Shown here one piece after another: positions 20,642 to 35,004 of a stretch of 39,655 nt of DNA (position 1 is its first letter; each line of letters opens with the position of its first letter). The notes beneath the pieces were generated by a model. That model was not told the origin of the DNA. It made no database searches and saw nothing but the letters and a program-made list of their open reading frames with translations. The stretch is from positions 1-39,655 of the IMG/VR virus record IMGVR_UViG_3300028920_000148. One strand, written 5' to 3'. The translations under genes were made by a program, and so were the position numbers. This DNA is from a virus.

Positions 20642-20642
20642 G

Positions 20643-20834
20643 CTATGCTCCTTTTCTTATTTCTAACTCTTGTATCAACTCTTTTAACAGTTGACCCTTT
20701 CCTTTTTCTAACATAGAACTTATGCCGTCTGGCTGATCTATGTTCGTGTAAGCAACACCTTGAAGCTTTGCCTCAAGATATTTCTTATACGGCTGTAGTT
20801 GCTCCTTGTGGAGCTGCACCCATTCCCTGCTCAC
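20643..20834 (-). CDS. Small helical protein between portal and scaffold, 63 aa
   Basis: Starts at GTG 20834, with AAGG a few bases upstream inside the portal gene, and overlaps the portal end by 50 bases. Amphipathic helical sequence (HKEQLQPYKKYLEAKLQ, GQLLKELIQELEIRK). It ends in TAG inside the ribosome site of the scaffold gene, so translation is probably coupled. Function unknown; portal-adjacent miniproteins of this kind occur in other podoviruses. Confidence 0.5.
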   Translation of the reverse strand: MSREWVQLHKEQLQPYKKYLEAKLQGVAYTNIDQPDGISSMLEKGKGQLLKELIQELEIRKGA

Positions 20835-23478: not shown

Positions 23479-25797
23479 TCAATATGCAACAACTCCACCA
23501 GTATTTACGTTGTTGTTCTCTGGTTTAATATAAGGATTATTCCCGTGATAGTCTACGCCTAGTCTGTCTTCCCACATTTCATAATCGTCATCAAACACAT
23601 CTTTTTTCTTTAGCCCGTCTATGGTCATGTTAACTCTTGGTTCTGCTTCCATGCGATAACATTCGTCCTCAAGGGCGTAGCGTGTCGCATCTAGGCAATT
23701 TGATACAAGTATTCCATTTGCGTAGAATAAAGGACAGTCTTTAATTGTTAGATTATATACGTCTCTTTTGATGTATAAGTTTTCCCCTACAAGAAAATGA
23801 ACATGTTTTAACCTTTGAATATTTGTCAGTCTTAAATGGTTCGTTGCAGATAACACAGCGTCTTTCAATGTCATCAACCTTTGAATCACGCCTATGCTTC
23901 GACTTACAAGCATTTGAACAATAGATCGCTTTCTTTGTGCGTGTATAGAATTGTTTTCCACATTGTTTGCATGTATGCTCGAAGTCAAGCCCTTTCCCCT
24001 CCCATGCTTTAACGCCGTGATCTCTATGCCATTCTCTGCCCTCTTCGCTTGCGTGCCATTCTTTTGTAAGTGGTCTAATCTTATCAAGATTCTGCTTAAC
24101 AAACTCTTTGTTGTCTTTGTGGTATTGTTTGGCATGCATCGAAATATGTTTCTTTTTACAAATACACTCAAGGTTATCAATGGCGTTATTAGTTTTATTA
24201 TAATCCTTGTGGTGTATTGCATAGTCTTTAGGAATAGTCCCGTTATAGCTCTCCCACACCTCCAGATGTAATGCTTTATGTTTTCCGTTATATCTACAAG
24301 TAGAGATATAATATCTGCCATTAAAATAATACTTCTCGCCATTAAATATAATATGTTTCTTTTCTTGCATGTATCTATTATATCACCGTATCGCATAGAG
24401 TCAATCTTAATCATTCTCCCTTTTGAATATATCTTATGGCTTGCTGTTGAGAATAACTCAACCCCATTTGAATATAGGGATCTATATATCTCTCTAGTCC
24501 CTGTCTTGCCACAATTAATAAGTGGCTTATATCCTATTGGCGTAAGTATTTTGTCGTCAATGGTTATTTTATCTATACGCTTTACTCCATTATCAGTTTC
24601 AACTAGCGTACTGCCAATAAAACAGTGATTGTCTTTATCAACGGGCACTGGCATAGCGTTGCCGTCTTTATCCTCTTTGTATTGGTATGTTTGTATCTCG
24701 TTAACATAGTCCTGACATCTTGGGTGTATGATGATCTCTAGTGACTGCAAAAACTTAATACCGTACTCTATTGATCCTTTGCCTTTCTTTGCGCCAAAAG
24801 CATTTAATCCTAGCTGTTGCCATTCTGCTACTGATTTGGGTTCTGCGCTATCGCACTTAACTATCTCTATCCCTATCTTCTCTTTGACCATCTTAGCAGA
24901 GTCTTTGTTGAGTAGGTTCTTTTGGTATATCGTGTCACAGACATATAGCTTTCTTTGGTTCATGTTTAAGTGTAAGCGCACAAAAGCGAATGGATCGCTA
25001 CTAAATCCCCAGTCAACACCGTTGTGGTATCTGTCAAAAGAGTCTGGATCAAACTTCTCTATCTTCCAATTCTTAAATATAATATGGCCAAGTATTCCCC
25101 AATTACCTAGAGTATATACCTCATACCAGTATCTATCCTTCTCGTTCTCTAGTGCTGCACAATCTTCTGGCTCTAAGAACTCATTATCTTTGTATGTTGT
25201 CTTTAGTATTGATAGATTCTCTGTCTCTGCATAGTTTTCTGCTTCATTCCATAGCCCTTTAAAATACTCTGTATATATCCAGTGAGACTTTAATATCGGG
25301 TTAAATGAGATAGTTAGCCTCTTTTTAAATTTTGATCTACCTCTAAGTCTTTTCTTTAGCTGTTTAATATCGTCTAGTTCTGCTTCTGTAGCTTCCTCTA
25401 CCCATATATCAGTGATAACACCTTTAGCTGGTGTAATAGATTTAACCTTCTCTACGTCGTCTAGGCCAGCAAATAGTATCTGTGAGCCTGTTAGCTCGCA
25501 TGTAATAACCATCTCTGACTTGTTTATGCTGAAATAGTCCTGTAGCTTAAACTTATATATTGACTTCTTTATCTCGTTAAATGTTGACTTCCTGAGTGTG
25601 TTGCCTGTCTTACGGCAGATTAAATAGTTTCTACCCCTTAATACGTCTAATACTGTTCTGTCTGAGAGAAACACTGACTTACCAGAAGATGATCCGCCAA
25701 AATATATCTGTTCTCTATGCGTATTGTCTATATGCCTAACGTATACTTTGTTAAAGACTCCTTCTGTCTTTATATCAATCTGTAATTGATTTACCAT
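23479..25797 (-). CDS. terL: Terminase large subunit with intein, 772 aa precursor
   Basis: The ATPase domain has Walker A GGSSSGKS (residues 34-41), Walker B VITDIWVEE (127-135) and SFNP (164-167). The nuclease domain has D262 (GVDWGF), D316 (CDSAEP) and D703 (CLDATRYALE). Between H391 and C701 lies a 309-residue intein. Splicing would give a 463-residue enzyme, normal for the family. The intein interrupts the conserved NH-x-D-A-RYA motif two residues before the third catalytic aspartate, so the nuclease is probably inactive before splicing. The enzyme packages DNA through the portal. The start overlaps the small subunit by 23 bases; the ribosome site is weak. Confidence 0.9.
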   Translation of the reverse strand: MVNQLQIDIKTEGVFNKVYVRHIDNTHREQIYFGGSSSGKSVFLSDRTVLDVLRGRNYLICRKTGNTLRKSTFNEIKKSIYKFKLQDYFSINKSEMVITCELTGSQILFAGLDDVEKVKSITPAKGVITDIWVEEATEAELDDIKQLKKRLRGRSKFKKRLTISFNPILKSHWIYTEYFKGLWNEAENYAETENLSILKTTYKDNEFLEPEDCAALENEKDRYWYEVYTLGNWGILGHIIFKNWKIEKFDPDSFDRYHNGVDWGFSSDPFAFVRLHLNMNQRKLYVCDTIYQKNLLNKDSAKMVKEKIGIEIVKCDSAEPKSVAEWQQLGLNAFGAKKGKGSIEYGIKFLQSLEIIIHPRCQDYVNEIQTYQYKEDKDGNAMPVPVDKDNHCFIGSTLVETDNGVKRIDKITIDDKILTPIGYKPLINCGKTGTREIYRSLYSNGVELFSTASHKIYSKGRMIKIDSMRYGDIIDTCKKRNILYLMARSIILMADIISLLVDITENIKHYIWRCGRAITGLFLKTMQYTTRIIIKLITPLITLSVFVKRNIFRCMPNNTTKTTKSLLSRILIRLDHLQKNGTQAKRAENGIEITALKHGRGKGLTSSIHANNVENNSIHAQRKRSIVQMLVSRSIGVIQRLMTLKDAVLSATNHLRLTNIQRLKHVHFLVGENLYIKRDVYNLTIKDCPLFYANGILVSNCLDATRYALEDECYRMEAEPRVNMTIDGLKKKDVFDDDYEMWEDRLGVDYHGNNPYIKPENNNVNTGGVVAY
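23753..24370 (-). CDS. HNH homing endonuclease gene nested out of frame in the intein, 205 aa
   Basis: HNH motif: H53-H54 in AIHHKDYNKTNN, N66-L67, C71, H75 and H79. Two Cys4 fingers follow: C134/C137/C151/C155 and C172/C175/C190/C194. This layout fits a free-standing HNH homing endonuclease that would cut intein-less terminase genes. It is not in the terminase frame. It has its own ATG, an in-frame TGA five codons before that ATG, and a TAA stop inside intein block F. It therefore looks like an independent gene and not a domain of the intein. A promoter candidate ends six bases before the ATG; no clear ribosome site is present. Confidence 0.85.
   Translation of the reverse strand: MQEKKHIIFNGEKYYFNGRYYISTCRYNGKHKALHLEVWESYNGTIPKDYAIHHKDYNKTNNAIDNLECICKKKHISMHAKQYHKDNKEFVKQNLDKIRPLTKEWHASEEGREWHRDHGVKAWEGKGLDFEHTCKQCGKQFYTRTKKAIYCSNACKSKHRRDSKVDDIERRCVICNEPFKTDKYSKVKTCSFSCRGKLIHQKRRI
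24377..24404 (-). promoter_or_regulatory. Candidate promoter for the nested HNH gene
   Basis: TTGACT (24399-24404) and TATAAT (24377-24382) with a 16-base spacer, 11 of 12 consensus bases. The ATG of the HNH gene begins seven bases after TATAAT, so a transcript from here would start at or very near the start codon. Confidence 0.45.
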
Positions 25798-26203
25798 CTA
25801 TGCTTAATACTACGTTAGCTTGCTTCTGTTTGTTATCCTTTTCATATCTGCCCTGTAGTTTATTGTATATGTCTATAGCTCTGAGCTTAGTTGATAGGTC
25901 TGCTGACTGATTAATAACAAAAGAGTGTTGAGCATCTACTGATTCATCGTTATATCCTTGTTTATTCAGTAGGTCTCTCCCAGCCTCGTATATCTTAGGC
26001 GTTCTTAGTAGTTCATATGCCTTAACTCCTGCAAAATTATAGTTAATTGTACCGTTTTTAGTTTGAAACTCTCCTTCACCAAAGGCAGATAGTATAGATT
26101 GAGTGCCGTTTCCGAAGGTGTCGCTGCTTTGTGTATAGTAATACTCTACAAAGAGAGCTTCGTTATCTGTTAGTTGTTTAGTTAGTAGAGGGCTTTTAGG
26201 CAT
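25775..26203 (-). CDS. terS: Terminase small subunit, 142 aa
   Basis: Start chosen at ATG 26203; GGAG lies ten bases upstream, while an in-frame GTG at 26212 is too close to it. The N-terminus (LTDNEALFVEYYYTQSSDTFGNGTQSILSAFG) and the following GVKAYELLRTPKIYEAGRDLL match the DNA-binding helix-turn-helix region of small terminase subunits. The C-terminal helix (LSTKLRAIDIYNKLQGRYEKD) would oligomerise and meet the large subunit. It recognises the packaging site. It overlaps the large subunit gene. Confidence 0.8.
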   Translation of the reverse strand: MPKSPLLTKQLTDNEALFVEYYYTQSSDTFGNGTQSILSAFGEGEFQTKNGTINYNFAGVKAYELLRTPKIYEAGRDLLNKQGYNDESVDAQHSFVINQSADLSTKLRAIDIYNKLQGRYEKDNKQKQANVVLSIDGKSITD

Positions 26204-26375
26204 TAGCTGCACTCTCCAGTATTTCTTCTATCGCTGCCTGTTCTGCTATGTGTCTAAACTCACCGCACCAGTCTCCTAGGATTTTAGGTTCATTCTTTGG
26301 TAGTCTTCTACAATAGCCGTTGTATGTTTGCATCTTGTGAGGCATGAAGTATATACAGTCTTTACATTTATCCAT
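26196..26375 (-). CDS. Small Cys-rich protein with WCGEF motif, 59 aa
   Basis: Start chosen at ATG 26375 behind AAGGAG; the longer frame lacks a site. C-x2-C near the N-terminus (CKDC), a single Cys (YCRRLP) and a final DWCGEF give four zinc ligands in the spacing of a common phage miniprotein type. It overlaps the terminase small subunit by eight bases. Function unknown. Confidence 0.65.
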   Translation of the reverse strand: MDKCKDCIYFMPHKMQTYNGYCRRLPKNEPKILGDWCGEFRHIAEQAAIEEILESAANA

Positions 26376-26493
26376 TAATAATCTCCTTAATATAGTCCAC
26401 AAAATTTACTTGTTTGTTATATACAGCGTCTAGAATCTCTTGAGCTGTTTCTTTTCTTATTCTATCTACTATTTCATCAAATTCATTATCCAT
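26371..26493 (-). CDS. Small acidic protein, 40 aa
   Basis: ORF from ATG 26493 (MDNEFDEIVDRIRKE...) to TAA, overlapping its neighbours at both ends (TAATG at the start, five bases at the end). One amphipathic helix is likely. AAGGG stands upstream. No family recognised. Confidence 0.5.
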
Positions 26494-26615
26494 TACTTTT
26501 TCCCTTGACTAGCTTTAATCGCCTTTAGTCGTTTAATTGCTTTAGCTTTTGTTTTGCTTATACCAGGAGTGTTAGCTATTTTATATCCACCTTTTACTTT
26601 TCTTATTGGTGACAT
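26493..26615 (-). CDS. Small basic protein, 40 aa
   Basis: MSPIRKVKGGYKIANTPG, then a Lys/Ala-rich helix (SKTKAKAIKRLKAIKAS). I recall this RKVKGGYK pattern in small proteins near phage and ribosome-associated genes; the function is unknown. It overlaps the next start by TAATG. No strong ribosome site is seen, so it may depend on coupling with the 49-aa gene ending one base upstream. Confidence 0.55.
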   Translation of the reverse strand: MSPIRKVKGGYKIANTPGISKTKAKAIKRLKAIKASQGKK

Positions 26616-26616
26616 G

Positions 26617-26766
26617 TTATGCGCCTATAGATAGTTTAAATTGGTTGTAGTTAAATGCTGTTATGTCTGATACTTTGTCTTCTAAAATGGCTAATAGTTT
26701 GTTTGCTTTTAGCAATACTTCTTCGTATTCATTTAATATTTTTGGAGTTGTTAGGTTGTTGTACAT
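26617..26766 (-). CDS. Small hypothetical protein, 49 aa
   Basis: ORF from ATG 26766 (MYNNLTTPKILNEYEEVLL...) to TAA. AGGAGCATAAATA precedes the ATG. Mostly helical. Its start overlaps the stop of the zinc-ribbon gene (TAATG). Nothing else can be said. Confidence 0.55.
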   Translation of the reverse strand: MYNNLTTPKILNEYEEVLLKANKLLAILEDKVSDITAFNYNQFKLSIGA

Positions 26767-26918
26767 TATTTATGCTCCTGCTTAATAAATCCAGTGTCTT
26801 TATCGCATCTACTACAGTACACCTTTTCTGGTTCTTCTAAGTTTACATATCTTTCTTCTTCAAAACCACAGTGCTGGCAATTAACGTTTGTTATTATTGC
26901 AACTCTGCCACTAGGCAT
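26766..26918 (-). CDS. Zinc-ribbon miniprotein, 50 aa
   Basis: Two Cys pairs, CQHC (residues 14-17) and CSRC (35-38), with strands between: a simple zinc ribbon. AGGAAACAACTA precedes the ATG. It overlaps the end of the 101-aa gene by eight bases. Possibly nucleic-acid binding; no closer assignment. Confidence 0.6.
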   Translation of the reverse strand: MPSGRVAIITNVNCQHCGFEEERYVNLEEPEKVYCSRCDKDTGFIKQEHK

Positions 26919-27216
26919 TAGTTGTTTCCTTTAACTTTTCTTCTAACTTTTTTCGCTCTTCAAATCTTATATAAATATCTTCTAGGTCATTATGCCTACA
27001 TACTACTCTTAATATATTTACTATTGAATCTTTTATAATGTGCTGTCTTCCGAGAAGTATTGATACTTGAGATGGTTCAACATAACAGTTAATCTTTAAC
27101 AACCCTTCTGCGTTTTTAGGTTCAACCACTGAAGTGTCGTCACCATTTAATATTCCCTGTACTATTTCTGTGAATAAATCTACCGCTGCCATCTTTGTCT
27201 TGTGTCTTATTTCCAT
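26911..27216 (-). CDS. KH-domain-like protein, 101 aa
   Basis: Start chosen at ATG 27216 because the preceding GGAGGGG is an ideal ribosome site; the frame extends upstream to a GTG inside that site. LKINCYVEPSQVSILLGRQHIIKDSIVNILRVV resembles a KhpA-type KH domain (shown here in part: VEPSQVSILLGRQ), but the GxxG loop is incomplete (GRQH). RNA binding is a guess. It ends in TAG. Confidence 0.4.
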   Translation of the reverse strand: MEIRHKTKMAAVDLFTEIVQGILNGDDTSVVEPKNAEGLLKINCYVEPSQVSILLGRQHIIKDSIVNILRVVCRHNDLEDIYIRFEERKKLEEKLKETTNA

Positions 27217-27277
27217 TGTCCCCTCCACTTATTCTATTTCATAGCAACGTTATTATATATTATATTGTTATAAATTA

Positions 27278-27493
27278 CTAGTCTTTATAATATTTTTCTT
27301 GTGCAATAACATAATTAATTTCTTTACAAGCTCTTATTACTTTAGCAATGTATTTAGGTTGGTATTCAGGATCTAGCATCTTCTCCCATTCTGCATCTGC
27401 TTCTCTTTGCCACTTAATATCGTTAGTTATCTTTATGTTAATACAAAGAGCTATTGTTATTAGTATTGCTATAACTATAAACTCTTTATTCAT
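27278..27493 (-). CDS. Small membrane protein, 71 aa
   Basis: One N-terminal membrane segment (residues 5-22, FIVIAILITIALCINI) followed by a charged cytoplasmic or periplasmic part of about 45 residues. It ends in tandem TAG TAA. The start overlaps the stop of the 89-aa gene (ATGA). The 61-base gap downstream (27217-27277) is AT-rich and contains TATAAT, but no good -35 box. Confidence 0.55.
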   Translation of the reverse strand: MNKEFIVIAILITIALCINIKITNDIKWQREADAEWEKMLDPEYQPKYIAKVIRACKEINYVIAQEKYYKD

Positions 27494-27759
27494 TCTTTAC
27501 TCTCCTTGTTTTGTTGGATTATTTCTTTGATATAATTAACAACATCTCTACAACTTCCATTTTCTCCTTTTGAAATTATGGCAATTCTATTTTCTTCCCA
27601 TATTTTCTCAACTGTTTCAGCTACTTCAACTCTAGCCTCTCTCTGCTTTTGCTCTACAAAATCGGCTATATTTCTTATATCGTCAGCTTTATCACAACAC
27701 CCTGCACAACCAAAAACAACATCTTCTTTTATCTCATCTATTATCTCTTGTCTATTCAT
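27490..27759 (-). CDS. Small CxxC protein, 89 aa
   Basis: GCAGCCDK near residue 17 gives a CxxCC cluster; then a charged helix (EQKQREARVEVAETVEKIW) and a final helix (VVNYIKEIIQQNKE). The same order appears in the 79-aa protein at 28666-28905, so the two are probably paralogues. The function is unknown. Overlaps with both neighbours are four bases (ATGA). Confidence 0.55.
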   Translation of the reverse strand: MNRQEIIDEIKEDVVFGCAGCCDKADDIRNIADFVEQKQREARVEVAETVEKIWEENRIAIISKGENGSCRDVVNYIKEIIQQNKESKE

Positions 27760-27968
27760 TTGTTTAGCTCCTGTAGTTTATTGTCTACCCACTCCCCAAA
27801 TTCTTCATTATCAAAGTTTAAATATTCATCAAAACATTCTTCAAGTAGCTTGCGTTGTTCGGCTATGTGCCAATCTGCTGTTGCTTCCAATGGGTCTCCA
27901 CCAGTCATTGCACACCTTTCGGCTATTCCGAATATTTTATTAGCTATCTCTTGTCGCTTATTAGTCAT
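27756..27968 (-). CDS. Small hypothetical protein, 70 aa
   Basis: Start chosen at ATG 27968, after GGAGACCACAA; the longer frame lacks a site. Helical with ADWHIAEQRKLLEECFDEYL in the middle and an acidic C-terminus. It overlaps the previous and next genes by a few bases, as throughout this region. No family recognised. Confidence 0.5.
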   Translation of the reverse strand: MTNKRQEIANKIFGIAERCAMTGGDPLEATADWHIAEQRKLLEECFDEYLNFDNEEFGEWVDNKLQELNK

Positions 27969-28125
27969 TTGTGGTCTCCTTGATGTCTTCATCTAAAATT
28001 AGCTTTAATGCAGATATTATTCCTTCTAGTTTCCCTATTCCAAAATTAATTGTTTTTTTATCAGACAAGCTAACTATTGCACTTTCTATTTTTTCTATTA
28101 ATACATCTTTGTCTATATATATCAT
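27961..28125 (-). CDS. Small hypothetical protein, 54 aa
   Basis: ORF from ATG 28125 (MIYIDKDVLIEKIES...) to TAA, behind AAAAGGAGTAGTA, a strong ribosome site. Helical. The upstream gene's TAG TAA lies inside this leader. No family recognised. Confidence 0.55.
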   Translation of the reverse strand: MIYIDKDVLIEKIESAIVSLSDKKTINFGIGKLEGIISALKLILDEDIKETTND

Positions 28126-28127
28126 TA

Positions 28128-28661
28128 CTACTCCTTTTCTAAATCTTTAATCTTATCTCGCATCGTTTTTATTTGATCGTTCATATTGTTTATGGAATAG
28201 CTTATTCCATCAATAACTAGCTGGTAGTGGTGACGCATATTTAATAACTTAGCAATCGCTACCTCTTTAATCAATATTGCTGTCTCTAGCTCTTCTTTTT
28301 CATGCAATAAATCTTCTAAATTGTGAATTTGTGTCAGGCATCTTGACGCATAGTGTTTTGTTTTGTTATAAACAATGTGATATATCTTGTAATATTCTCT
28401 TTCGTGGCTAAGTATCTTTAAACACATTTCATATACTTGGTTATAAATGCTTATCTTTTCTATTATTGTTAATTGTGAACCTTCTAATTGTCCAGCCATA
28501 AAGTTGCGGTATTGTTTAAACTCTTTGAGTCTTTGTGATTTTTCTTTGTGATTGCCGTTTCTGTAGGCGTCCTCTAGTCTCATAACAGAGTTATAAACAA
28601 GGGCTACTAATCCTTTGCACTCAAGAAAAATATCTGGCATTGGTATTACTTTAGTTATCAT
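28128..28661 (-). CDS. Coiled-coil hypothetical protein, 177 aa
   Basis: Almost wholly helical. Residues 115-175 (HNLEDLLHEKEELETAIL... and MNDQIKTMRDKIKDLEKE) form a likely coiled coil; the first half is a helical bundle with several aromatic residues. No known motif. It ends in TAG followed at once by TAA. Confidence 0.55.
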   Translation of the reverse strand: MITKVIPMPDIFLECKGLVALVYNSVMRLEDAYRNGNHKEKSQRLKEFKQYRNFMAGQLEGSQLTIIEKISIYNQVYEMCLKILSHEREYYKIYHIVYNKTKHYASRCLTQIHNLEDLLHEKEELETAILIKEVAIAKLLNMRHHYQLVIDGISYSINNMNDQIKTMRDKIKDLEKE

Positions 28662-28665
28662 GGCT

Positions 28666-28905
28666 TTACTCCTTATTGGCTTCGATTATTTTATCTAAAT
28701 AATCTTTTAATTCTTCCCATAAATACCAATCTTCATTTGGCGCACCTATAACATCTTTTGTAATTGCCTCTGCTACCTCTCGCCTTGCTTGTCTTTCTCG
28801 TTTTTCGATGTAGTCTGATAAATTTCCATAAATGTTTGGTTTATAGCATTTTCCGCATAAATTGAAATGATTTTTTAAATATTTTATTGTATCTTCTCTA
28901 CTCAT
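28666..28905 (-). CDS. Small CxxC protein, 79 aa, paralogue of 27490-27759
   Basis: Contains CGKC (residues 17-20), EKRERQARREVAEAI (34-48) and a final LKDYLDKIIEANKE, in the same order as the 89-aa protein. Start behind AAGGGAGATAGTA. It is the first gene downstream of the hairpin region 28948-29185, whose transcript, if any, would form its leader. Confidence 0.55.
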   Translation of the reverse strand: MSREDTIKYLKNHFNLCGKCYKPNIYGNLSDYIEKRERQARREVAEAITKDVIGAPNEDWYLWEELKDYLDKIIEANKE

Positions 28906-28928
28906 TACTATCTCCCTTGCTTTTATTT

Positions 28929-28976
28929 AGTATACATTCACTTGCTCAATGTCTACTAACTTGCGTTTTTGTAGAC
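28929..28976 (-). promoter_or_regulatory. Weak candidate promoter overlapping a hairpin
   Basis: TAGACA (28971-28976) and TATACT (28929-28934). TAGACA lies in one arm of the inverted repeat at 28948-28979. The distance is larger than a normal spacer, so only TATACT with an alternative -35 inside the hairpin is likely (TTGAGC at 28944-28949 is too close). Use with caution. Confidence 0.2.
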
Positions 28977-29185
28977 ATTGGTGGCTAGAGGGGAAGTTTC
29001 ACAGAGGCGTAATCGCTTGATTCACTTGTCGGGTTTAAACCTAGGAGCCTATCCCTACTCTAGCCGTGCTACACACAGGCTATCCTAGTTGTAGCTTGTT
29101 ATTGTGGCAGTTGGTCTGCAATATCTGTATGCGATTAACGGCTTACAAACGTATTTATCAGGGTACCACCCCCACACAATAACAA
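28948..29185. ncRNA. Chain of hairpins in a noncoding GC-rich region
   Basis: Between the genes ending at 28905 and 29198 there is no supportable gene. Four stems follow one another with zero to three bases between them: AATGTCTAC/GTAGACATT (28948-28956 with 28971-28979); GGCTAGAG plus GGGA with TCCC plus CTCTAGCC (28983-28994 with 29052-29065); GCTACA/TGTAGC (29068-29073 with 29090-29095); TTGTTATTGTG/CACAATAACAA (29096-29106 with 29175-29185). Inner hairpins lie at 29005-29018 and 29107-29119. I counted 94 G+C in 200 bases from 28981, high for this AT-rich phage. It could be a structured RNA or a replication origin; the strand is undecided. Confidence 0.6.
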
Positions 29186-29197
29186 ATTATCAAAGTT

Positions 29198-29329
29198 CTA
29201 TTTATACAAATTCTCCATTGCGTTCAAAAACTCTAGCATATCAAATAGCTTATCTTGCTCTTTTCTATTCTCTGGTATTTGTAGTTTCCAGTTTATTTCT
29301 TTTTTCTTTTCAGCTATTGCTTTTATCAT
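29198..29329 (-). CDS. Small hypothetical protein, 43 aa
   Basis: ORF from ATG 29329 (MIKAIAEKKKEINWKLQ...) to TAG. AGAGG stands upstream. Charged and helical. It overlaps the zinc-ribbon gene by 20 bases and is the last gene before the hairpin region. Confidence 0.45.
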   Translation of the reverse strand: MIKAIAEKKKEINWKLQIPENRKEQDKLFDMLEFLNAMENLYK

Positions 29330-29468
29330 CTTGTACCTCTTTTAAAATGCTTTTTACAGTGGTTGTTTTTTCACAATGGTTACAATACCATCTGTGGAAC
29401 TGTCCATCCTTAACTATTTTTAAGTCTTCTCCACCGCATTTATCGCAAATATAATGTTCTATCTTCAT
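29310..29468 (-). CDS. Zinc-ribbon miniprotein, 52 aa
   Basis: Cys pairs CDKC (residues 8-11) and CNHC (29-32) separated by short strands form a zinc ribbon. The tail is Lys/Thr-rich. Start overlaps the stop of the 74-aa gene (ATGA). Probably nucleic-acid or protein binding; not further assigned. Confidence 0.6.
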   Translation of the reverse strand: MKIEHYICDKCGGEDLKIVKDGQFHRWYCNHCEKTTTVKSILKEVQDDKSNS

Positions 29469-29689
29469 GCTTTTACCAACTTATATTTATCAAATACTAT
29501 TGTCCTTGATTTGCTTGTTGGTTTAAACTTAACTGTTTTCCTAGCAAACTTATATCCTGCTGGTGTGTTTTCTCTTATCTCTCTTGCACGCCTATCTGCA
29601 TGTGCTGAATAAATAATATCGCACATCTCTCTGTTGCTTAACCATCTTTTCTTTAACTCTCTAGTTAGTATCTCTTTTTTACTTATCAT
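29465..29689 (-). CDS. Winged-helix-like small protein, 74 aa
   Basis: KKRWLSNREMCDIIYSAHADRRAREIRE followed by a basic hairpin (ARKTVKFKPTSKSRTIVF) resembles a compact winged-helix domain of phage early proteins (helix-turn-helix at about 13-40, wing at 50-68). Could be a DNA-binding regulator. Start overlaps the upstream end by 11 bases. Confidence 0.4.
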   Translation of the reverse strand: MISKKEILTRELKKRWLSNREMCDIIYSAHADRRAREIRENTPAGYKFARKTVKFKPTSKSRTIVFDKYKLVKA

Positions 29690-30068
29690 TTTTAACCCCC
29701 TTTAATTCTTCTAACTGGTCAATAAATAGACTTGCTTGTTCTTTTGTTAGAGTGGTTATAGATATGTCCTCAGAGCCAAGTAGTTTCGTTTTAAGGCGTT
29801 TCTTTGTATCTTCTAAGGCATAACCGTACTTTGTGGCTAGCTCGCCGTAGAGGATGTTTATTTTCGCCTTTTGCTCGTTTGACGCTGTTGATAACTGATT
29901 AATGGCTGTTGCCCCGTCAATATTCATTTCAACTTTTAATGGCTTCTTTAAGAAGTTGGTTATCTGTTGCATAACTCGACTAGCGTCTGTCTCTGGTAGA
30001 TCAAACTCTAGCCTTACAGCACCAGTAGCCATATTTTTAAATCTTATTAGCTCAGCATTAAATAACAT
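29679..30068 (-). CDS. Hypothetical protein in the recombination block, 129 aa
   Basis: The first part (residues 14-50) contains ATGAVRLEFDLPETDASRV and looks like a small alpha/beta unit. The second part (EQKAKINILYGELATKYGYALEDTKKRLK) is helical and recalls phage recombination-associated proteins of the NinB type, but key residues cannot be confirmed. It sits downstream of the 79-aa protein and the possible annealing protein. Ribosome site AAGGAGTAAATAA before ATG. Confidence 0.4.
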   Translation of the reverse strand: MLFNAELIRFKNMATGAVRLEFDLPETDASRVMQQITNFLKKPLKVEMNIDGATAINQLSTASNEQKAKINILYGELATKYGYALEDTKKRLKTKLLGSEDISITTLTKEQASLFIDQLEELKGVKNDK

Positions 30069-30124
30069 TTATTTACTCCTTAAAATGGCACAGAATTTGG
30101 GTAATCATTGTGATCTGCTAAAGT

Positions 30125-30364
30125 TCATGTACGCTTTTTGTTTGGGTCTGGCTTCCAACGATTAATGCTTATATAATGCGTTTTATTCCATTGATATGGT
30201 TCTGCCTTTTTTCCTATTGTTATATTAACGTATCGTTTACCGTTCTTTTGTGATGCTGTTATGTCTTGTTCTGGTATGTCATCTATACATATGCTACCGT
30301 TAATATACTTCTCGTTTGTTTGTTTCGCTGATCCTATAAATACTGGTTTTTCTTGTTCTATCAT
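30125..30364 (-). CDS. Hypothetical replication-block protein, 79 aa
   Basis: Strand-rich protein with NGKRYVNITIGKKAEP and THYISINRWKPDPNKK, a pattern I recall near single-strand-binding proteins of phages. The frame ends in TGA (30125-30127), but continues open for 14 more codons to TAA at 30080 and would add TLADHNDYPNSVPF, an acidic tail with a terminal Phe like that of SSB-type proteins. Whether the stop is leaky is unknown. Ribosome site AAGGAGAAAGAA before ATG. Confidence 0.5.
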   Translation of the reverse strand: MIEQEKPVFIGSAKQTNEKYINGSICIDDIPEQDITASQKNGKRYVNITIGKKAEPYQWNKTHYISINRWKPDPNKKRT

Positions 30365-30374
30365 TTCTTTCTCC

Positions 30375-30488
30375 TTAATTTTTGCTAAATTTAAAATTAA
30401 CTTCTGTATCTATCTTTAAGCTATATTTAAAAATATGCTCTGGTGGTTTAATGTGCTGTATCTCTTTAGCTATCTTTACATTATCCAT
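30375..30488 (-). CDS. Small hypothetical protein, 37 aa
   Basis: Start chosen at ATG 30488, behind AGGAGAATAATA; the longer frame to 30602 runs through another gene. It overlaps the end of the 142-aa gene by eight bases. Mixed sequence MDNVKIAKEIQHIKPPEH... with no motif. Confidence 0.5.
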   Translation of the reverse strand: MDNVKIAKEIQHIKPPEHIFKYSLKIDTEVNFKFSKN

Positions 30489-30909
30489 TATTATTCTCCT
30501 GTTGAGCATAGTATGCTTTCTTTTGTTCTTCTGGCGTTCTGCCTTTTGGTTTCTTAAAGCTATCGGCCTCAACGTCGCTATATATTCCATATTCATAAGC
30601 ATTAATTAATTTTAATACAGCCCTGTCTATCCCTCTCTTCTCGGCCATTGCCCCATAATATTTAGATGTGCAATTATCGTTTGATGCCTCGCCAACTGTT
30701 ATTATTCGCTTGCTTCCCTTTTTACATGTTACTAAAAACCTGCTAGATGTTTCTGTTTGGTATAAAGACTCAATACTTACTAGCTCTATAGCTTCTATTG
30801 CCATAATCTTTTCAACAGCATTATGAGATATAATCCAGCTTCCGTGACAATTCCAAACATCTTTTTCTCTATCTAGGTTATATTTTAATCCAAGCTCTTT
30901 AATATCCAT
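30481..30909 (-). CDS. Possible single-strand annealing protein, 142 aa
   Basis: Start chosen at ATG 30909 (MDIKELGLKYNL). GSWIISHNAVEKIMAIEAI, then strands, then VGEASNDNCTSKYYGAMAEKRGIDRAVLKLI. The GEAS-N and MAEKR-DR-VLKL pattern is shared by phage proteins of the Rad52/ERF-like annealing group, as far as I recall. Its place in a block with RusA and a DnaD-like initiator supports a recombination role. The C-terminus is Glu/Gln/Lys-rich. The start overlaps the upstream stop (TAATG). Confidence 0.45.
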   Translation of the reverse strand: MDIKELGLKYNLDREKDVWNCHGSWIISHNAVEKIMAIEAIELVSIESLYQTETSSRFLVTCKKGSKRIITVGEASNDNCTSKYYGAMAEKRGIDRAVLKLINAYEYGIYSDVEADSFKKPKGRTPEEQKKAYYAQQENNNG

Positions 30910-31058
30910 TATCCACACATCCTTTCAGCTAGTTGTTCTGACTTAACCTTACCTTTAAGTTTAATTAAATCATCTATCTTTTCGTCTATCTTTTCTTTTT
31001 CTTGCTCTAGTGCCTCTATGCACATATCAAGCCATTTTAACTCTGTTTCGTAATTCAT
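30909..31058 (-). CDS. Small coiled-coil protein, 49 aa
   Basis: MNYETELKWLDMCIEALEQE followed by KEKIDEKIDDLIKLKG gives one helix pair with heptad spacing. GGAGGGCAACTA precedes the ATG. Overlaps both neighbours by TAATG. No function assigned. Confidence 0.55.
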   Translation of the reverse strand: MNYETELKWLDMCIEALEQEKEKIDEKIDDLIKLKGKVKSEQLAERMCG

Positions 31059-31219
31059 TAGTTGCCCTCCAAATAATCTCTTATCTCTTCATCATATTCA
31101 TCTTTTAATGATTCTCTAAAAGAATAATCTTGCAACTTAATGTCTAGCCAGTCATTTAATTGTTCATCTGTAATGTCTTTTTCCCAGCATTGCTTAGTAT
31201 CTTCATATTCTTTTACCAT
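31058..31219 (-). CDS. Small acidic protein, 53 aa
   Basis: MVKEYEDTKQCWEKDITDEQ followed by an Asp/Glu-rich helix. GAGGTAACATC precedes the ATG. Overlaps both neighbours. An acidic miniprotein from the early region could be a host inhibitor or DNA mimic, but nothing specific supports this. Confidence 0.5.
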   Translation of the reverse strand: MVKEYEDTKQCWEKDITDEQLNDWLDIKLQDYSFRESLKDEYDEEIRDYLEGN

Positions 31220-31347
31220 GATGTTACCTCCGCATTAAAATGTACGTCACCTTCATAAAATACTTTTGTTGATCCAATTTCCTGGAATCCAAAGTATTCT
31301 GCTAGCTTGTCCCATATCGTTACTTCTTGTCTTAGTGAAATTTTCAT
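31213..31347 (-). CDS. Small hypothetical protein, 44 aa
   Basis: MKISLRQEVTIWDKLAEYFG, then EIGSTKVFYEGDVHFNAEV. An ideal ribosome site (AAGGAGG, ten bases from ATG). First gene behind the promoter at 31393-31422. No family recognised. Confidence 0.55.
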   Translation of the reverse strand: MKISLRQEVTIWDKLAEYFGFQEIGSTKVFYEGDVHFNAEVTSW

Positions 31348-31392
31348 CTTGCTTAACCTCCTTGATTTATTTTCCTCTGCTGAGGATTACTA

Positions 31393-31422
31393 ACTTTAAC
31401 ACAAACACTGTAATCGTGTCAA
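31393..31422 (-). promoter_or_regulatory. Promoter with operator-like repeat
   Basis: TTGACA (31417-31422) with TAAAGT (31393-31398) after 18 bases. Inside lies ACAC-N7-GTGT (31405-31419), overlapping the -35 box. It sits in the 82-base gap downstream of the LexA-like gene and points at the 44-aa gene. The repeat could be an operator for that regulator (inference). Confidence 0.45.
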
Positions 31423-31429
31423 GTCTTTT

Positions 31430-31651
31430 TTATTGCATTGTATTCTTTAAAATCTTTAATCTACGTGCTGTATTTTTGGCTCTTTCAATATACCCCTTTT
31501 TTATAAGGGTTTTAATTCTGTCCGATATAGCGTTTAAGCTAACTTCAAAATGATCTGCCATTTCTCTATAGCTTGGTTGGTAGTCATTCTCCCTGCTAAA
31601 TGTAATTATGTATCTTAATGTTTCTGCTTGTTTGTCTGATAATTTATTCAT
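31430..31651 (-). CDS. LexA-type winged-helix regulator, DNA-binding domain only, 73 aa
   Basis: LSDKQAETLRYIITF, then PSYREMADHFEVSLNAISDR and LIKKGYIERAKNTARRLKIL follow the LexA N-terminal domain closely, helix by helix. The catalytic Ser-Lys peptidase domain of LexA is absent, so it cannot self-cleave. It probably represses or activates phage promoters, possibly the one just downstream. The ribosome site is weak. It ends in TAA. Confidence 0.75.
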   Translation of the reverse strand: MNKLSDKQAETLRYIITFSRENDYQPSYREMADHFEVSLNAISDRIKTLIKKGYIERAKNTARRLKILKNTMQ

Positions 31652-31663
31652 ACTGTTATTGTA

Positions 31664-31894
31664 TCAAGTGTTTGATTTATTTGCAAGCTTTTTATATTCT
31701 TTTCTTAGCCTAGCTATTGTTTGCTTGTTTGCGTAGTCGGTAGAAGCTATTGGTGTTTCATGTAGTTTTTCAAATATCCAGTTTTTTTCATCAGGCGGTA
31801 TTGCGTCTTTGTTTTTCTTTTTCTTAGCTCTCCACTTTTTATTGCTCTCTACTTGTCGTGCTAAGTGTGCTTTGTATTTATCTGATTGCTTCAT
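31664..31894 (-). CDS. Basic hypothetical protein, 76 aa
   Basis: Lys-rich helical N-terminus (SNKKWRAKKKKNKDAIPPDE), then ASTDYANKQTIARLRKEYKKL. Overlaps the upstream gene by four bases (ATGA). No motif is recognised; nucleic-acid binding is possible from charge alone. Confidence 0.5.
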   Translation of the reverse strand: MKQSDKYKAHLARQVESNKKWRAKKKKNKDAIPPDEKNWIFEKLHETPIASTDYANKQTIARLRKEYKKLANKSNT

Positions 31895-32112
31895 CCCAAC
31901 TCCCCTAATTCTTTTTTTAATATTTTCCAGCCTTCCCGTAGCTTTTGTTTCTCTTCATCTGCCATAGGAAATAATTTAGCTAGCGTCTCTATGTGGTTCA
32001 TTCTCTTTTGTATCTCTATCTTCTTTCTCTCTATAGCATTCTTTCTTTCTATATCTTCCATATTAGAAAACTCAAACCCTATTTGTCTAAGAGAAGATTT
32101 AATGCGTCCCAT
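31891..32112 (-). CDS. Charged helical protein, 73 aa
   Basis: Start chosen at ATG 32112, which overlaps the upstream stop (TAATG), in place of the in-frame TTG at 32127. Charged helix throughout (DIERKNAIERKKIEIQKRMN). Function unknown. Confidence 0.5.
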   Translation of the reverse strand: MGRIKSSLRQIGFEFSNMEDIERKNAIERKKIEIQKRMNHIETLAKLFPMADEEKQKLREGWKILKKELGELG

Positions 32113-32390
32113 TAGTCTAGTATCCAATCAAAACAGTTTATTTCATTTGGACCTGCGCTCATTTCTTCTAGACTCTTTTCTATAAGTTGTTGGATTATTT
32201 TTAAGGCTCTAATTGATATTCGATAACTTGGAATTTCTTTTTCTATATATGATTGCAATTCTTCAATTTTGTCTTTTTTCTTTTCCCATTTAGAGCAATA
32301 ATCTTTTGATGTGTACCAATTATCCCATTTAACACCAGATTGCTTAGTATTACAGTTTACATTCTTGCAATTGTCGCAACACTTATCCAT
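32112..32390 (-). CDS. Cys-rich small protein, 92 aa
   Basis: The first 35 residues hold six Cys (CCDNCKNVNC... and YC), consistent with a zinc knuckle; the rest is a charged helical region with EELQSYIEKEIPSYRIS. Ribosome site AGAGGTGTAAG before ATG. Unknown function. Confidence 0.55.
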   Translation of the reverse strand: MDKCCDNCKNVNCNTKQSGVKWDNWYTSKDYCSKWEKKKDKIEELQSYIEKEIPSYRISIRALKIIQQLIEKSLEEMSAGPNEINCFDWILD

Positions 32391-32391
32391 C

Positions 32392-32553
32392 TTACACCTC
32401 TTCTTTCCTTAATTGTTTAGCCATCCTGGTTATTTTATTGTCAGTTCTATTATATCCACATTCACTGCAAACATTATATTTTTTATCAAAAGTTGCGCCA
32501 AAATCTAATATGATCTTTTTGCAGTTTGGACAAGTCCATTGAGTATTAATCAT
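32392..32553 (-). CDS. Zinc-ribbon miniprotein, 53 aa
   Basis: CPNC (residues 8-11) and CSEC (29-32), with strands between, then a basic helix (RMAKQLRKEE). AAGGAAAGAAG before ATG. Probably nucleic-acid binding, as other early zinc ribbons. Confidence 0.6.
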   Translation of the reverse strand: MINTQWTCPNCKKIILDFGATFDKKYNVCSECGYNRTDNKITRMAKQLRKEEV

Positions 32554-32680
32554 CTTCTTTCCTTATATAGTTATCTTGGATGTATTTTAGCCACCAACCA
32601 AGCTCGCTAAATAAATAAAAATCTTTAGGAAACGCAACTTTATAATCAGACACAATTTTGTTTTGTTCTTCTTTATTCAT
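32546..32680 (-). CDS. Small hypothetical protein, 44 aa
   Basis: MNKEEQNKIVSDYKVAFPKD, then an aromatic stretch (FYLFSELGWWLKYIQD). Overlaps the zinc-ribbon gene by eight bases; AAGGAGATAATAAG precedes the ATG. No family recognised. Confidence 0.5.
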   Translation of the reverse strand: MNKEEQNKIVSDYKVAFPKDFYLFSELGWWLKYIQDNYIRKEDD

Positions 32681-32709
32681 CTTATTATCTCCTTTTATAT
32701 ATACCGTTA

Positions 32710-33216
32710 TTAAAACGGACAAAGATCTGCTGTTCTTTGGATAAGTTTTTTAGCGCCAAATCTTTTAAGGTATTCATATATCTTTTTTTCTTTATCCATT
32801 AGCTTTATATCTGCTTCATACTTTAATGGGTGCATATTATATCTTGGCAAGTTTTGATTATCGCCAGCTTTGCACTTACAAGCATAAGCGTATTCGTTTG
32901 TATCTTTTGTAACAGTAACAACACCATAGCCACCACATAGTTTACAGTCCGTTATTTGGTTGGCTCTCAATTCTCCTGTTCTATATTTGCCATCCCTTAT
33001 TTCTCTATAGACATTTTTAATTTCCCTTATTGTTGGAAAATATTTGTTTGTCTCTATTATCTTGTCGATCATCTCTTTAAATATTCCCTGATTAGAACAC
33101 ATATCGCCAATAGCATCTAAATATTCTAGCCTTTGTTCTTCGTTAGTATTCTTTTTAAAAAAAGATGATAACCTATCTATCCCTTTGTTTATCCATGCAC
33201 TATGATAATTTTGCAT
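32710..33216 (-). CDS. Possible helicase loader with zinc finger, 168 aa
   Basis: The N-terminal helical domain (residues 10-80) ends with YFPTIREIKNVYREI, a feature of phage helicase loader or replisome organiser proteins. CKLCGGYG (near residue 92) and CKCKAGD (near 113) form a zinc finger. The C-terminal part is a charged helix. It follows the DnaD-like initiator with a 17-base overlap, the usual order initiator then loader, in a phage with no polymerase of its own. Family call is tentative. It ends in TAA. Confidence 0.45.
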   Translation of the reverse strand: MQNYHSAWINKGIDRLSSFFKKNTNEEQRLEYLDAIGDMCSNQGIFKEMIDKIIETNKYFPTIREIKNVYREIRDGKYRTGELRANQITDCKLCGGYGVVTVTKDTNEYAYACKCKAGDNQNLPRYNMHPLKYEADIKLMDKEKKIYEYLKRFGAKKLIQRTADLCPF

Positions 33217-33862
33217 TAGCTCGCTCCTTTCTTCTTTCCTCTAGCTTTTTATTAAGTCTATCCATATCATAACTACCATCGTTTTTATCTTGATAGCCTG
33301 ACTCCTTCCATTTTTTTAAAATACCTTCAATATACCTTAAACTTCTAGCGTTAGAATCAATAGCTATTTTGCAAGCATTTATAAACCACTCTTCTGAATA
33401 AGTTTTTAACATATCCTTTATTCTCTCTGCTTCGTGTGAACTAATACTTAAATTTATATTATTTTGATAAAAGTCAAAACCACCACCACTATTAGTAGTT
33501 GTCTTTATCTCTTTTCTATTATCTATTATCTTTTGTCTATTATCTATTATCGGCTTTTTTGGGTTGCCTTGGGTTTCCAAATAACCCACTGGGTTTTCTG
33601 GGTTATTCTTTGGCCTGCCACCTTTCAGCCCATTTATTCTATTTCTCTCACAAATAGCATTATATTTGTCGTTGTCTCTATCAAATTGGCGTTTCATAAA
33701 TGAAAATACAAGATCAACAGAATGAGACAGATCTTTTGTCTCACCTGTTATTGAATAGTCAAACATAGCTGTTAGTAGCTCTGCCTGTTCTTCTATTGTT
33801 AGTTTTTGGATAGTTTGGTAATTATCTTTGTATAATAAAAACCCTTTTTTTTCTTTGTGCAT
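33200..33862 (-). CDS. DnaD-like replication initiator, 220 aa
   Basis: Start chosen at ATG 33862 behind GGGAGGG. The N-terminal domain (GFLLYKDNYQTIQKLTIEEQ...) matches the DUF6291-type region of phage initiators. A low-complexity linker follows (IIDNRQKIIDNRKEI). The C-terminal domain (SEEWFINACKIAIDSNARSL, then RYIEGILKKWKESGY) is a DnaD-type domain with its YI-IL-W signature. It should bind the phage origin and recruit the loader and host replisome. First gene behind the strong promoter at 33954-33980. Its ribosome site can be masked by a pseudoknot. It ends in TAG. Confidence 0.7.
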   Translation of the reverse strand: MHKEKKGFLLYKDNYQTIQKLTIEEQAELLTAMFDYSITGETKDLSHSVDLVFSFMKRQFDRDNDKYNAICERNRINGLKGGRPKNNPENPVGYLETQGNPKKPIIDNRQKIIDNRKEIKTTTNSGGGFDFYQNNINLSISSHEAERIKDMLKTYSEEWFINACKIAIDSNARSLRYIEGILKKWKESGYQDKNDGSYDMDRLNKKLEERRKERANAKLS

Positions 33863-33866
33863 ATTT

Positions 33867-33899
33867 CCCTCCCTTTGTCCTTGGAGGGGCAGTAAGGAC
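33867..33899 (-). promoter_or_regulatory. Predicted H-type pseudoknot over the initiator ribosome site
   Basis: On the mRNA, GTCCTT (33899-33894) pairs with AAGGAC (33882-33877). The loop between them contains CCCTCC (33888-33883), fully complementary to GGAGGG (33872-33867), the ribosome site of the DnaD-like gene. The connecting loop is AAAG. Both stems are perfect six-pair helices, and the second would block ribosome binding. Confidence 0.5.
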
Positions 33900-33923
33900 A
33901 AACAAACCACCCCTCGAGATTGC

Positions 33924-33943
33924 TCAATTAAGTTCTTAATCGA
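33924..33943. promoter_or_regulatory. Operator-like palindrome downstream of the early promoter
   Basis: ATTAAG-TT-CTTAAT (33927-33940) with outer TC/GA pairs and one mismatch, 20 bases in all. It begins about ten bases past the -10 box of the promoter at 33954-33980, a normal position for a repressor site. As RNA it could also fold into a hairpin. Confidence 0.4.
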
Positions 33944-33953
33944 ACACCTATAT

Positions 33954-33980
33954 AGTATACTAAATGAGTTTAAATGTCAA
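33954..33980 (-). promoter_or_regulatory. Early promoter for the replication block
   Basis: TTGACA (33975-33980) and TATACT (33954-33959) with a 15-base spacer, pointing at the DnaD-like gene about 90 bases away. The -35 box includes the TGA stop of the RusA gene. It shares TTGACATTTA and the same spacing with the late promoter. Confidence 0.65.
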
Positions 33981-34324
33981 ACAGAAATTATGCTAATATC
34001 GCAACCCTGCATATCCTTTTTTACATATTCCTTAGTTACTTCTAGTTCAAATATTTGGGAGTCATCTAAGTAACAAATACCATTTAGCGCATCTAATACA
34101 AACTTTAAAGAACTGTCTATATCTGTCCCTTTTCTTGGGTATCGCATGTTTATACTCATTTTTACTTTGGACGTCTTACAGGGCAACCTCTGCTCTCTAA
34201 GGGCTATATATGCGTGGTCGTGTAGATATTTTTTAGCTTCTCTGTACTTTTTAGAGAGGTGGTAGCTTCTCCCTACAAACTTCTGGTTGATGCTACAAAG
34301 TGGGCCATAGTATTTTATATCCAT
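33977..34324 (-). CDS. rusA: RusA-family Holliday junction resolvase, 115 aa
   Basis: Signature RKGTDIDSSLKFVLDALNG followed by LDDSQI; D68, D70, K74 and D87/D88 fit the RusA active site, except that the usual DN pair after D-x reads DS here. The length is normal. It cuts four-way DNA junctions, useful in recombination and before packaging. The start overlaps the upstream stop by ten bases. It ends in TGA, inside the next promoter. Confidence 0.8.
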   Translation of the reverse strand: MDIKYYGPLCSINQKFVGRSYHLSKKYREAKKYLHDHAYIALREQRLPCKTSKVKMSINMRYPRKGTDIDSSLKFVLDALNGICYLDDSQIFELEVTKEYVKKDMQGCDISIISV

Positions 34325-34626
34325 CCGTAACCTTCATTTATAAACTGTTGATAATGCTCTGGAGATAGTAAGTTTTTCCAAAACCTCATACATTTAAGCT
34401 TTATTTCTCTAGGTACTGATTGTGAATCGTGCCAATTCTTAGCGTGACTAAATTGCACTCCATGATCTGCACAAGACATTGGTAAAACCAATGACAACGC
34501 TTCTTCTTTCTGGCCTTTAACATAATGGTGTATTTCTCCTACCCATTGGTCTAAATATAGTTTAATAATAAACCAATGTTTCTTTTTGAATTTCTTTTTC
34601 TTTTCTGGTAATTCTATTTGTATCAT
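34315..34626 (-). CDS. Hypothetical protein before rusA, 103 aa
   Basis: Start chosen at ATG 34626, as the longer frame runs into the terminator. Lys-rich N-terminus (LPEKKKKFKKKHW), then an aromatic region with PMSCADHGVQFSHAKNWHDS containing Cys and His residues that might bind a metal. No family recognised. No good ribosome site; the leader contains an alternative hairpin TGGCGG/CCGCCA (34638-34643 with 34665-34670). Confidence 0.5.
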   Translation of the reverse strand: MIQIELPEKKKKFKKKHWFIIKLYLDQWVGEIHHYVKGQKEEALSLVLPMSCADHGVQFSHAKNWHDSQSVPREIKLKCMRFWKNLLSPEHYQQFINEGYGWI

Positions 34627-34675
34627 GTTATTTAAAGTGGCGGATAGTTTAAATGGGGGGCTACCCGCCAAGGGC

Positions 34676-34699
34676 AAAAAAGAGTGATGTTAGATCACT
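34676..34699 (-). terminator. Intrinsic terminator after the lysis block
   Basis: On the minus strand AGTGAT (34699-34694), loop CTAAC, ATCACT (34688-34683), then CTTTTTT. It overlaps the last codons of the small membrane protein gene and separates it from the gene at 34626. Confidence 0.65.
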
Positions 34700-34938
34700 G
34701 TTGCTATTATAATTAATAAGTATCCTGTTTTCAAGTAAAAATTTTCTCTCTTAACTTCTTTCATTTGGTTTGAGCGATACTCTTCTTTAACCTCATAGGT
34801 TATCTGAGCTTTATATGTGTCGAGCTGCATTTCATACAGTTCATTTAAGTCTTTTGCTGAGATTTCTTGCCCTACGCATACGCTCGTCAAGATCAGCGTG
34901 CTTAAAAGAATTGCGAAGTATCTTTTGAATTTTTTCAC
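34690..34938 (-). CDS. Small exported or membrane protein, 82 aa, spanin-like layout
   Basis: GTG at 34938 is preferred: GGGAGG lies seven bases upstream, whereas the ATG at 34944 directly abuts that site. The N-terminus KKFKRYFAILLSTLILTSVCVG is a signal or anchor. A charged helix follows (residues 30-60) and a final hydrophobic segment (YLLIIIATVI). A membrane-anchored coiled coil next to an endolysin could be an inner-membrane spanin, but the second hydrophobic end is unusual. Not assigned with certainty. Confidence 0.5.
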   Translation of the reverse strand: MKKFKRYFAILLSTLILTSVCVGQEISAKDLNELYEMQLDTYKAQITYEVKEEYRSNQMKEVKRENFYLKTGYLLIIIATVI

Positions 34939-35004
34939 TGTCATCCCTCCCAAATAAAAGATTCCATATGTTCATTATTATTTTAATCACTTATTCCCCT
35001 TTGT

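Follow-up and report, generated by a model that had tools for sequence, protein, structure and literature searches.

The systems closest to the element reported here are the phage hammerhead and HDV-like theta ribozymes, the T-box, and ornate phage RNAs such as ROOL and GOLLD. Phage hammerheads, in the account of PMC3088659, flank inconstant genes, and one of those described there sits 13 nt before the start of a helicase gene. Theta ribozymes are described as often adjoining tRNAs. In the T-box, as outlined in PMC7583486, a 7-nt bulge pairs through UGGN with the NCCA of the tRNA and continues with ACC. The present element, an 80-nt cloverleaf with two invariant cores in a gene-free gap of a phage genome, recalls each of these in part and, as far as Rfam 15 and the literature examined show, probably represents an undescribed, rare phage RNA family.

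The window, meaning the whole stretch of DNA that was analysed, is the 39,655-base virus record IMGVR_UViG_3300028920_000148. It comes from a tailed phage with Pfam and NCBIfam matches to an SU10-type portal and adaptor, a PBSX-type terminase, a RusA nuclease and a DnaD/DnaB_2-like initiator. The terminases of bacterial genomes closest to that of the phage belong to Clostridia (59-63% identity), an identity from which the host may be a relative of Clostridia. The large terminase subunit (23479-25797) carries an insert at residues ~390-700 that resembles an intein, with an NCBIfam match to the intein C-terminal region at residues 679-701; in a related contig (L010, 430-1245) some 800 bp, which may be an intron or intein, split the terminase gene at a different position.

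All genes around the element lie on the minus strand. On this strand the interval 28906-29197, which an earlier note on this DNA had described as lacking a gene, indeed holds no ORF of at least 40 aa (the longest has 30 aa), and stop codons are present in all three minus frames. At 292 nt it exceeds every other minus-strand gap of the phage; only two more reach 120 nt, and these measure 120 and 173 nt. The G+C content quoted earlier for 28981-29180 was reproduced at 0.470, compared to 0.334 for 25800-35000, and is about the top 200-nt value within the latter region. The 79-aa ORF behind the gap matched no Pfam or NCBIfam family above cut-off. Several small ORFs that contain Cys and are built alike cluster at 27490-27992 and 28666-28905, and an ORF of the same look is found in the phage relative L002 (10385-10636); these are perhaps a family of small early proteins. 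The features of the locus, from upstream to downstream, are:

29198 to 29329, minus strand: upstream 43-aa ORF, its stop codon 12 nt before P1
29201 to 29227, minus strand: possible weak promoter TTGAAC-15-TATAAA, read from the sequence, shortly before P1
29096 to 29185, minus strand: conserved part, the cloverleaf RNA domain (P1 domain), 90 nt, delimited by the R2 match and pair counts
29175 to 29185, minus strand: P1 5' strand, 11 bp with 29096-29106, from the stem chain; the outer stem covaries in four phages
29156 to 29174, minus strand: 5' core UGGGGGUGGUACCCUGAUA, invariant in four phages apart from the window's extra G
29124 to 29155, minus strand: variable arm, 32 nt in the window and 31, 21 and 58 nt in L100, L101 and L102
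29107 to 29123, minus strand: 3' core, UAUU plus the hairpin GCAG-ACCAA-CUGC (NCCA loop), from sequence comparison; the hairpin covaries
29096 to 29106, minus strand: P1 3' strand, from the stem chain and covariation
29068 to 29095, minus strand: P2 hairpin, 6 bp (29095-29090/29073-29068), abutting P1, from the stem chain; no homologue found
28983 to 29065, minus strand: P3, 8+4 bp (the 8 being 29065-29058/28990-28983) around ~60 nt, from chain and folding; no homologue found
28947 to 28980, minus strand: P4 hairpin, 10 bp (28980-28971/28956-28947), from the stem chain; no homologue found
28666 to 28905, minus strand: downstream 79-aa ORF with an AAGGGAG ribosome site, ATG at 28905

The chain of hairpins that had drawn attention to the gap was confirmed and can be described more sharply. 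Four stems (P1-P4) of 11, 6, 8+4 and 10 pairs, all of them Watson-Crick, follow each other end to end on the minus strand from 29185 to 28947, with spacers of 0 nt (P1/P2), 2 nt (P2/P3) and 2 nt (P3/P4), and P1 encloses 68 nt. No chain as good as these 35 pairs appeared in 3000 dinucleotide shuffles (maximum 22), and the chain ranks top among 540 windows of the phage. The folding energy z is -4.0 for the minus and -3.75 for the plus strand (0 of 200 shuffles each); since by energy z alone the region comes only third and sixth of 330 phage windows, it is the chain of perfect stems and not the energy that is exceptional. The long-range pairs UAAUCGC/GCGAUUA and CUAGGA/UCCUAG were no better than shuffles (0.15 and 0.11). 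The lowest folding z values of the phage lie at 20576-20815 (-4.9), which spans the gap 20642-20784 from the portal gene to the next ORF, and at 19376-19615 (-4.5).

A 16-base pattern from the P1 domain was searched in 2.9 million viral contigs and retrieved three of them (L100, L101 and L102), all with the whole cloverleaf domain; the three phages are unrelated. As they were chosen by the 16-nt core that they have in common with the window, the conservation of this core is no independent evidence, and the rest of the domain is independent evidence because the selection used 16 bases only. The order of the domain from 5' to 3' is outer stem, 5' core, variable arm, UAUU, hairpin and outer stem, and the four members known read:

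Window: UUGUUAUUGUG / UGGGGGUGGUACCCUGAUA / 32 nt / UAUU / GCAG-ACCAA-CUGC / CACAAUAACAA
L100: GGCUGGCG / UGGGGUGGUACCCUGAUA / 31 nt / UAUU / GCAG-ACCAA-CUGC / CGCCAGCC
L101: UAUUGUGG / core as in L100 / 21 nt / UAUU / GUAG-CCCAA-CUAC / CCACGAUA
L102: AAAACAAG / core as in L100 / 58 nt / UAUU / GCAC-ACCA-GUGC / CUUGUUCU

The 5' core shared by L100, L101 and L102 has one G fewer than that of the window. Over the 18-nt 3' core (UAUU, the hairpin and the next base), L100 agrees with the window at 18/18, L101 at 15/18 and L102 at 12/18 positions, a match that was reached by 0, 0 and 34 of 2000 shuffles, respectively; only 9-11/18 were found at 11 other near-core sites, a comparison that leaves aside L104 and L105, whose core has more than two mismatches. 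In the outer stem, 31 of the 32 possible pairs form (8 pairs in four phages), while nearly every position changes save the invariant closing pair; without that pair the count is 27 of 28, which chance, at 0.375 per pair, would give with a probability of 6e-11. The stem of the 3' hairpin pairs completely (16/16), and two of its four pairs are changed on both sides. All 44 cells pair in alignment A8 (window, L100 and L101), a result not equalled in 500 shuffles, and pairing falls to 30-50% when the partners are slid by 1-3 columns; L100 and L101 by themselves were equalled by 16 of 500 shuffles. None of these pair counts was taken from alignments A4, A5 or A6: A4 and A6 were excluded, the 3' half of L102 having been misplaced by MAFFT, and in A5 the P1 of the window is one column off, owing to the extra G.

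A model built from L100 and L101 only, with the window left out (R2), recovered the window at 29181-29100 with 52.4 bits and E 5.4e-11 in a search space of 1.43 Mb from 100 sources. The same model gives L102 only 15.1 bits (E 1.7), and the junction helix of L102 was reached by 92 of 2000 shuffles. For L101, the Watson-Crick junction helix alone (4 pairs before U-G) is at chance (1420/2000). L102 is thus the weakest member, placed in the family by an exact 18-base core, UAUU, the CCA loop and two stems.

Compensatory change, singled out beforehand as the point on which the structured-RNA proposal could fail, is present in the P1 stems across these related elements, and the window carries the invariant 5' and 3' cores inside the covarying outer stem that mark the family. 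The stretch 29185-29096 is therefore very probably a real conserved RNA domain. The proposal of a noncoding structured RNA stands for the P1 domain through its covariation with the three other phages; for P2-P4, with no homologue found and no covariation, it has the statistics of the chain. The segment 29095-28947 is a structured extension known only from this phage, and its support is statistical.

Within the domain, the invariant cores form two small, opposing arms of the cloverleaf, one of GGG/CCC (29161-29171 in the window) with the loop UGGUA and one of 4 bp with the NCCA loop. Loop-loop pairing of UGG with CCA would be possible in this model, neither partner varying among the members. 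In L102 the minimum-energy fold is the cloverleaf itself, and in L101 the two tie; in the window the cloverleaf comes within 0.4 kcal/mol of the minimum and in L100 within 2.6 kcal/mol. In all four phages it is favoured by 0.5 to 5.4 kcal/mol over an alternative rod fold, in which UGGU pairs with NCCA.

The family is rare, and none of the weak matches examined has both cores. Viral contigs were scanned with the 129-aa neighbour, its two-sequence alignment, the DnaD-like protein, the N-part of the terminase and the 177-aa neighbour. None of the relatives obtained through these proteins (L002/L003 and L004-L013) has the element in the DNA examined; L002 and L003 are one contig, with 65% identity in the DnaD part and 46-47% in the 129-aa protein. 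Since such sequence relatives are without it, the element does not travel with the phage backbone. Terminase scans of bacterial genome contigs returned 0 and 80 loci, and model R1 had no match on the 80. The two-arm pattern CTAGGATAGCC...GGCTCCTAG gave 0 matches, and the P3 pattern GGTTTAAACCCGACAAG gave 3 that are without other similarity and were judged to be chance. BLAST of the whole element found no credible match in phages, plasmids or (with 245 bases) E. coli genomes, as did a 2.5 kb query; a 30-nt core query returned 16-21-nt pieces only and the L100 element 18-22-nt pieces only.

Searches of 20, 391 and 398 genomes with R1 yielded no clear member and one weak match each in the sets of 391 and 398. 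L096 falls within a gene encoded on the other strand, and L095, which overlaps an ORF end, is without the conserved 3' core; both were judged to be chance. At E<=0.01, model R3 matched 6, 9 and 2 genomes in sets of 375, 398 and 98, with 3.8, 4.0 and 1.0 expected by chance. Because R1 and R3 derive from few sequences, and the filters of the large searches were stricter, these counts can miss distant members; one set of 398 probably repeats the other. On recheck (17 of 18 loci, L127 left out) the weak R3 loci scored 18-28 bits, which is chance level, and a core scan allowing up to two mismatches found none with the 3' half. The best of them, L112, lies opposite a gene that we read as glutamate-synthase-like, and L128 is without the 5' core. 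Three loci of the Bacillota search (L120, L121 and L124, at ~1500-1590) have in common a G-run and a stretch like GGTACCCTGATA...TTTGCTTGGCGAA...TACTTTTTTTAC; they are alike among themselves and are not members of the cloverleaf family.

In all four phages the cloverleaf lies between genes, in sense with both flanking genes and mostly with tight spacing. L100 has it 2 nt after a stop codon and 12 nt before the ATG of an N6/N4 DNA methylase. In L101 it stands ~430 nt after a long ORF, which by our own reading is the coat gene (no Pfam match), and is followed after 10 nt by the start codon (ATG) of a 51-aa ORF, with TATAAT a few bases before P1; the region upstream has a folding z of +1.5. The cloverleaf of L102 directly follows a stop codon and is followed after ~250 nt by a helicase-like gene. 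In L102 (390-560), the ~250 nt behind the cloverleaf contain only a 54-aa ORF of doubtful standing and the stem AGACAGG/CCUGUCU; the folding z for a second structured domain there, which could parallel that of the window, is only -0.9. In the window the cloverleaf comes 12 nt after a stop, and only there is it followed by P2-P4. Nothing is shared by the genes downstream in the four phages, and this, as with the phage hammerheads, points to a role in shaping the transcript over control of one pathway.

The element would be transcribed as part of a polycistronic RNA, from the weak promoter ahead of P1, or in both ways. The proposal is that it acts in cis to mark a boundary within the transcript: its compact fold would keep the upstream gene apart from the downstream one and offer either a fixed point of cleavage or an end that is protected. 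Cleavage or protection could come about through its own chemistry, or through a host nuclease or protein recruited to the invariant core formed by UGGGGUGGUACCCUGAUA, UAUU and the NCCA loop. The best explanation overall, to our mind evenly balanced, is a folded RNA of ~240 nt on the minus strand that belongs to the cloverleaf family through its 5' half, where covariation gives the fold, and that would be transcribed and act in cis as a boundary element. The boundary or processing role in polycistronic phage RNA is the favoured guess as to mechanism and is offered tentatively. It is possible, if doubtful, that the cloverleaf would prove a new functional core RNA, either a self-cleaving ribozyme between genes or a sensor of the tRNA 3'-NCCA.

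A tRNA-end sensor in the form of a riboswitch-like element, whose own NCCA loop would hold the bulge closed and open for a tRNA end, would draw on the two cores: UGGUACC, invariant in 4/4, equals the 7-nt T-box bulge as PMC7583486 presents it, and CCA stands in a hairpin loop in 4/4 (ACCA, CCCA and ACCA). This resemblance, however, was noticed after the fact, and the rod fold is the less stable one in every member; no Rfam match was obtained, hence no T-box stem I or antiterminator, and neither a terminator nor a buried ribosome site was seen. As no other T-box part is present, the sensor ranks below the boundary role and is quite improbable. The chain may also be a large leader element of the 79-aa gene; there is no minus-strand terminator-like hairpin near the element and the AAGGGAG ribosome site lies outside any stem, so that no classical switch is visible. 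The stable structure of ~240 nt in the window, the TTGAAC-15-TATAAA shortly before its P1 and the TATAAT before that of L101 would agree with a small RNA that acts in trans as a free molecule, transcribed from a promoter of its own in early infection. Such an RNA is nevertheless rather unlikely: the window promoter, falling outside the rules of the promoter scan, is absent from its output, no terminator was found, and the element of L100, whose flanks measure 2 and 12 nt, leaves little room for a separate gene.

The perfect Watson-Crick stems would also pair in single-stranded DNA of either strand, as an element acting as DNA (an origin of replication, a hairpin binding site) might require, and an origin for the DnaD-like protein had been considered in the earlier note. 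That reading found no support: the iteron search gave only two-copy repeats of 8-10 nt, the GC skew stays monotonic across the element, no DnaA-like box (up to one mismatch) lies inside the stems, with one near-DnaA box just outside, the DnaD-like gene is 4 kb away, and the orientation is sense in 4/4 phages. A function at the DNA level is accordingly very improbable. The few homologues and an energy z that is not unique in the phage would fit chance or a decayed gene, a reading that is hardly credible given the stops in all three minus frames, an 18-nt 3' core that lies in different reading frames in the window and L100, and covariation in four phages. Placed against these readings, the cis-acting boundary element is the one favoured. 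A compact fold, an almost invariant core of ~25 bases and unrelated surrounding genes are together the signature of RNA chemistry or specific binding, and new ribozyme and riboswitch classes were found from such motifs. The cloverleaf is short enough for quick transcription and assay, with the natural compensatory variants serving as controls.

Comparison with known RNA classes returned no family for the region, as the Rfam search proposed earlier now shows: Rfam 15 had no match at the gathering cut-off in the window and none at E<=10 for 28600-29500 or for L102 380-700, and on the whole of L100-L102 it gave two chance-level matches away from the motif and none on it. The core strings had no match in literature text, and the motif is absent from the titles and abstract openings of the papers listed by topic, in a search that covered few subscription papers or preprints and main texts only. 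With tRNA and tRNA-like structures the element shares a cloverleaf with an outer stem, a small arm with a UGG loop, a variable arm and a small arm with a CCA loop, whereas its stem lengths (6-11, 3, variable and 4) and loops do not fit. The misfit to a tRNA remarked on in the earlier note is borne out by ARAGORN, which finds 0 tRNA or tmRNA in the window and 0 in L100-L102, and the ACCA that it pointed out on the minus strand is correctly placed (28982-28979). The T-box discriminator has its counterpart in UGGNACC, present as UGGUACC in 4/4 and, in the favoured fold, forming hairpin loop and stem instead of a bulge, together with an NCCA in cis; the element differs from the T-box in having no stem I, no terminator/antiterminator pair, no downstream amino-acid gene and no match in Rfam, the library of which includes the T-box family. 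ROOL, GOLLD and other ornate phage RNAs are likewise structured phage RNAs of unknown function, in comparison to which the element is far shorter, has no match and has no tRNA found nearby. From the phage hammerhead and theta ribozymes it is set apart by the lack of any Rfam match at E<=10, by a core that presumably does not contain the hammerhead strands, and, for the theta ribozymes, by the absence of a tRNA near the element according to ARAGORN. A nested double pseudoknot of the HDV-like/theta type was neither spotted by eye nor matched in Rfam. It is with these ribozymes that the element nonetheless has the following in common: a small compact RNA with an invariant core and variable stems, placed between genes and beside genes that are inconstant.
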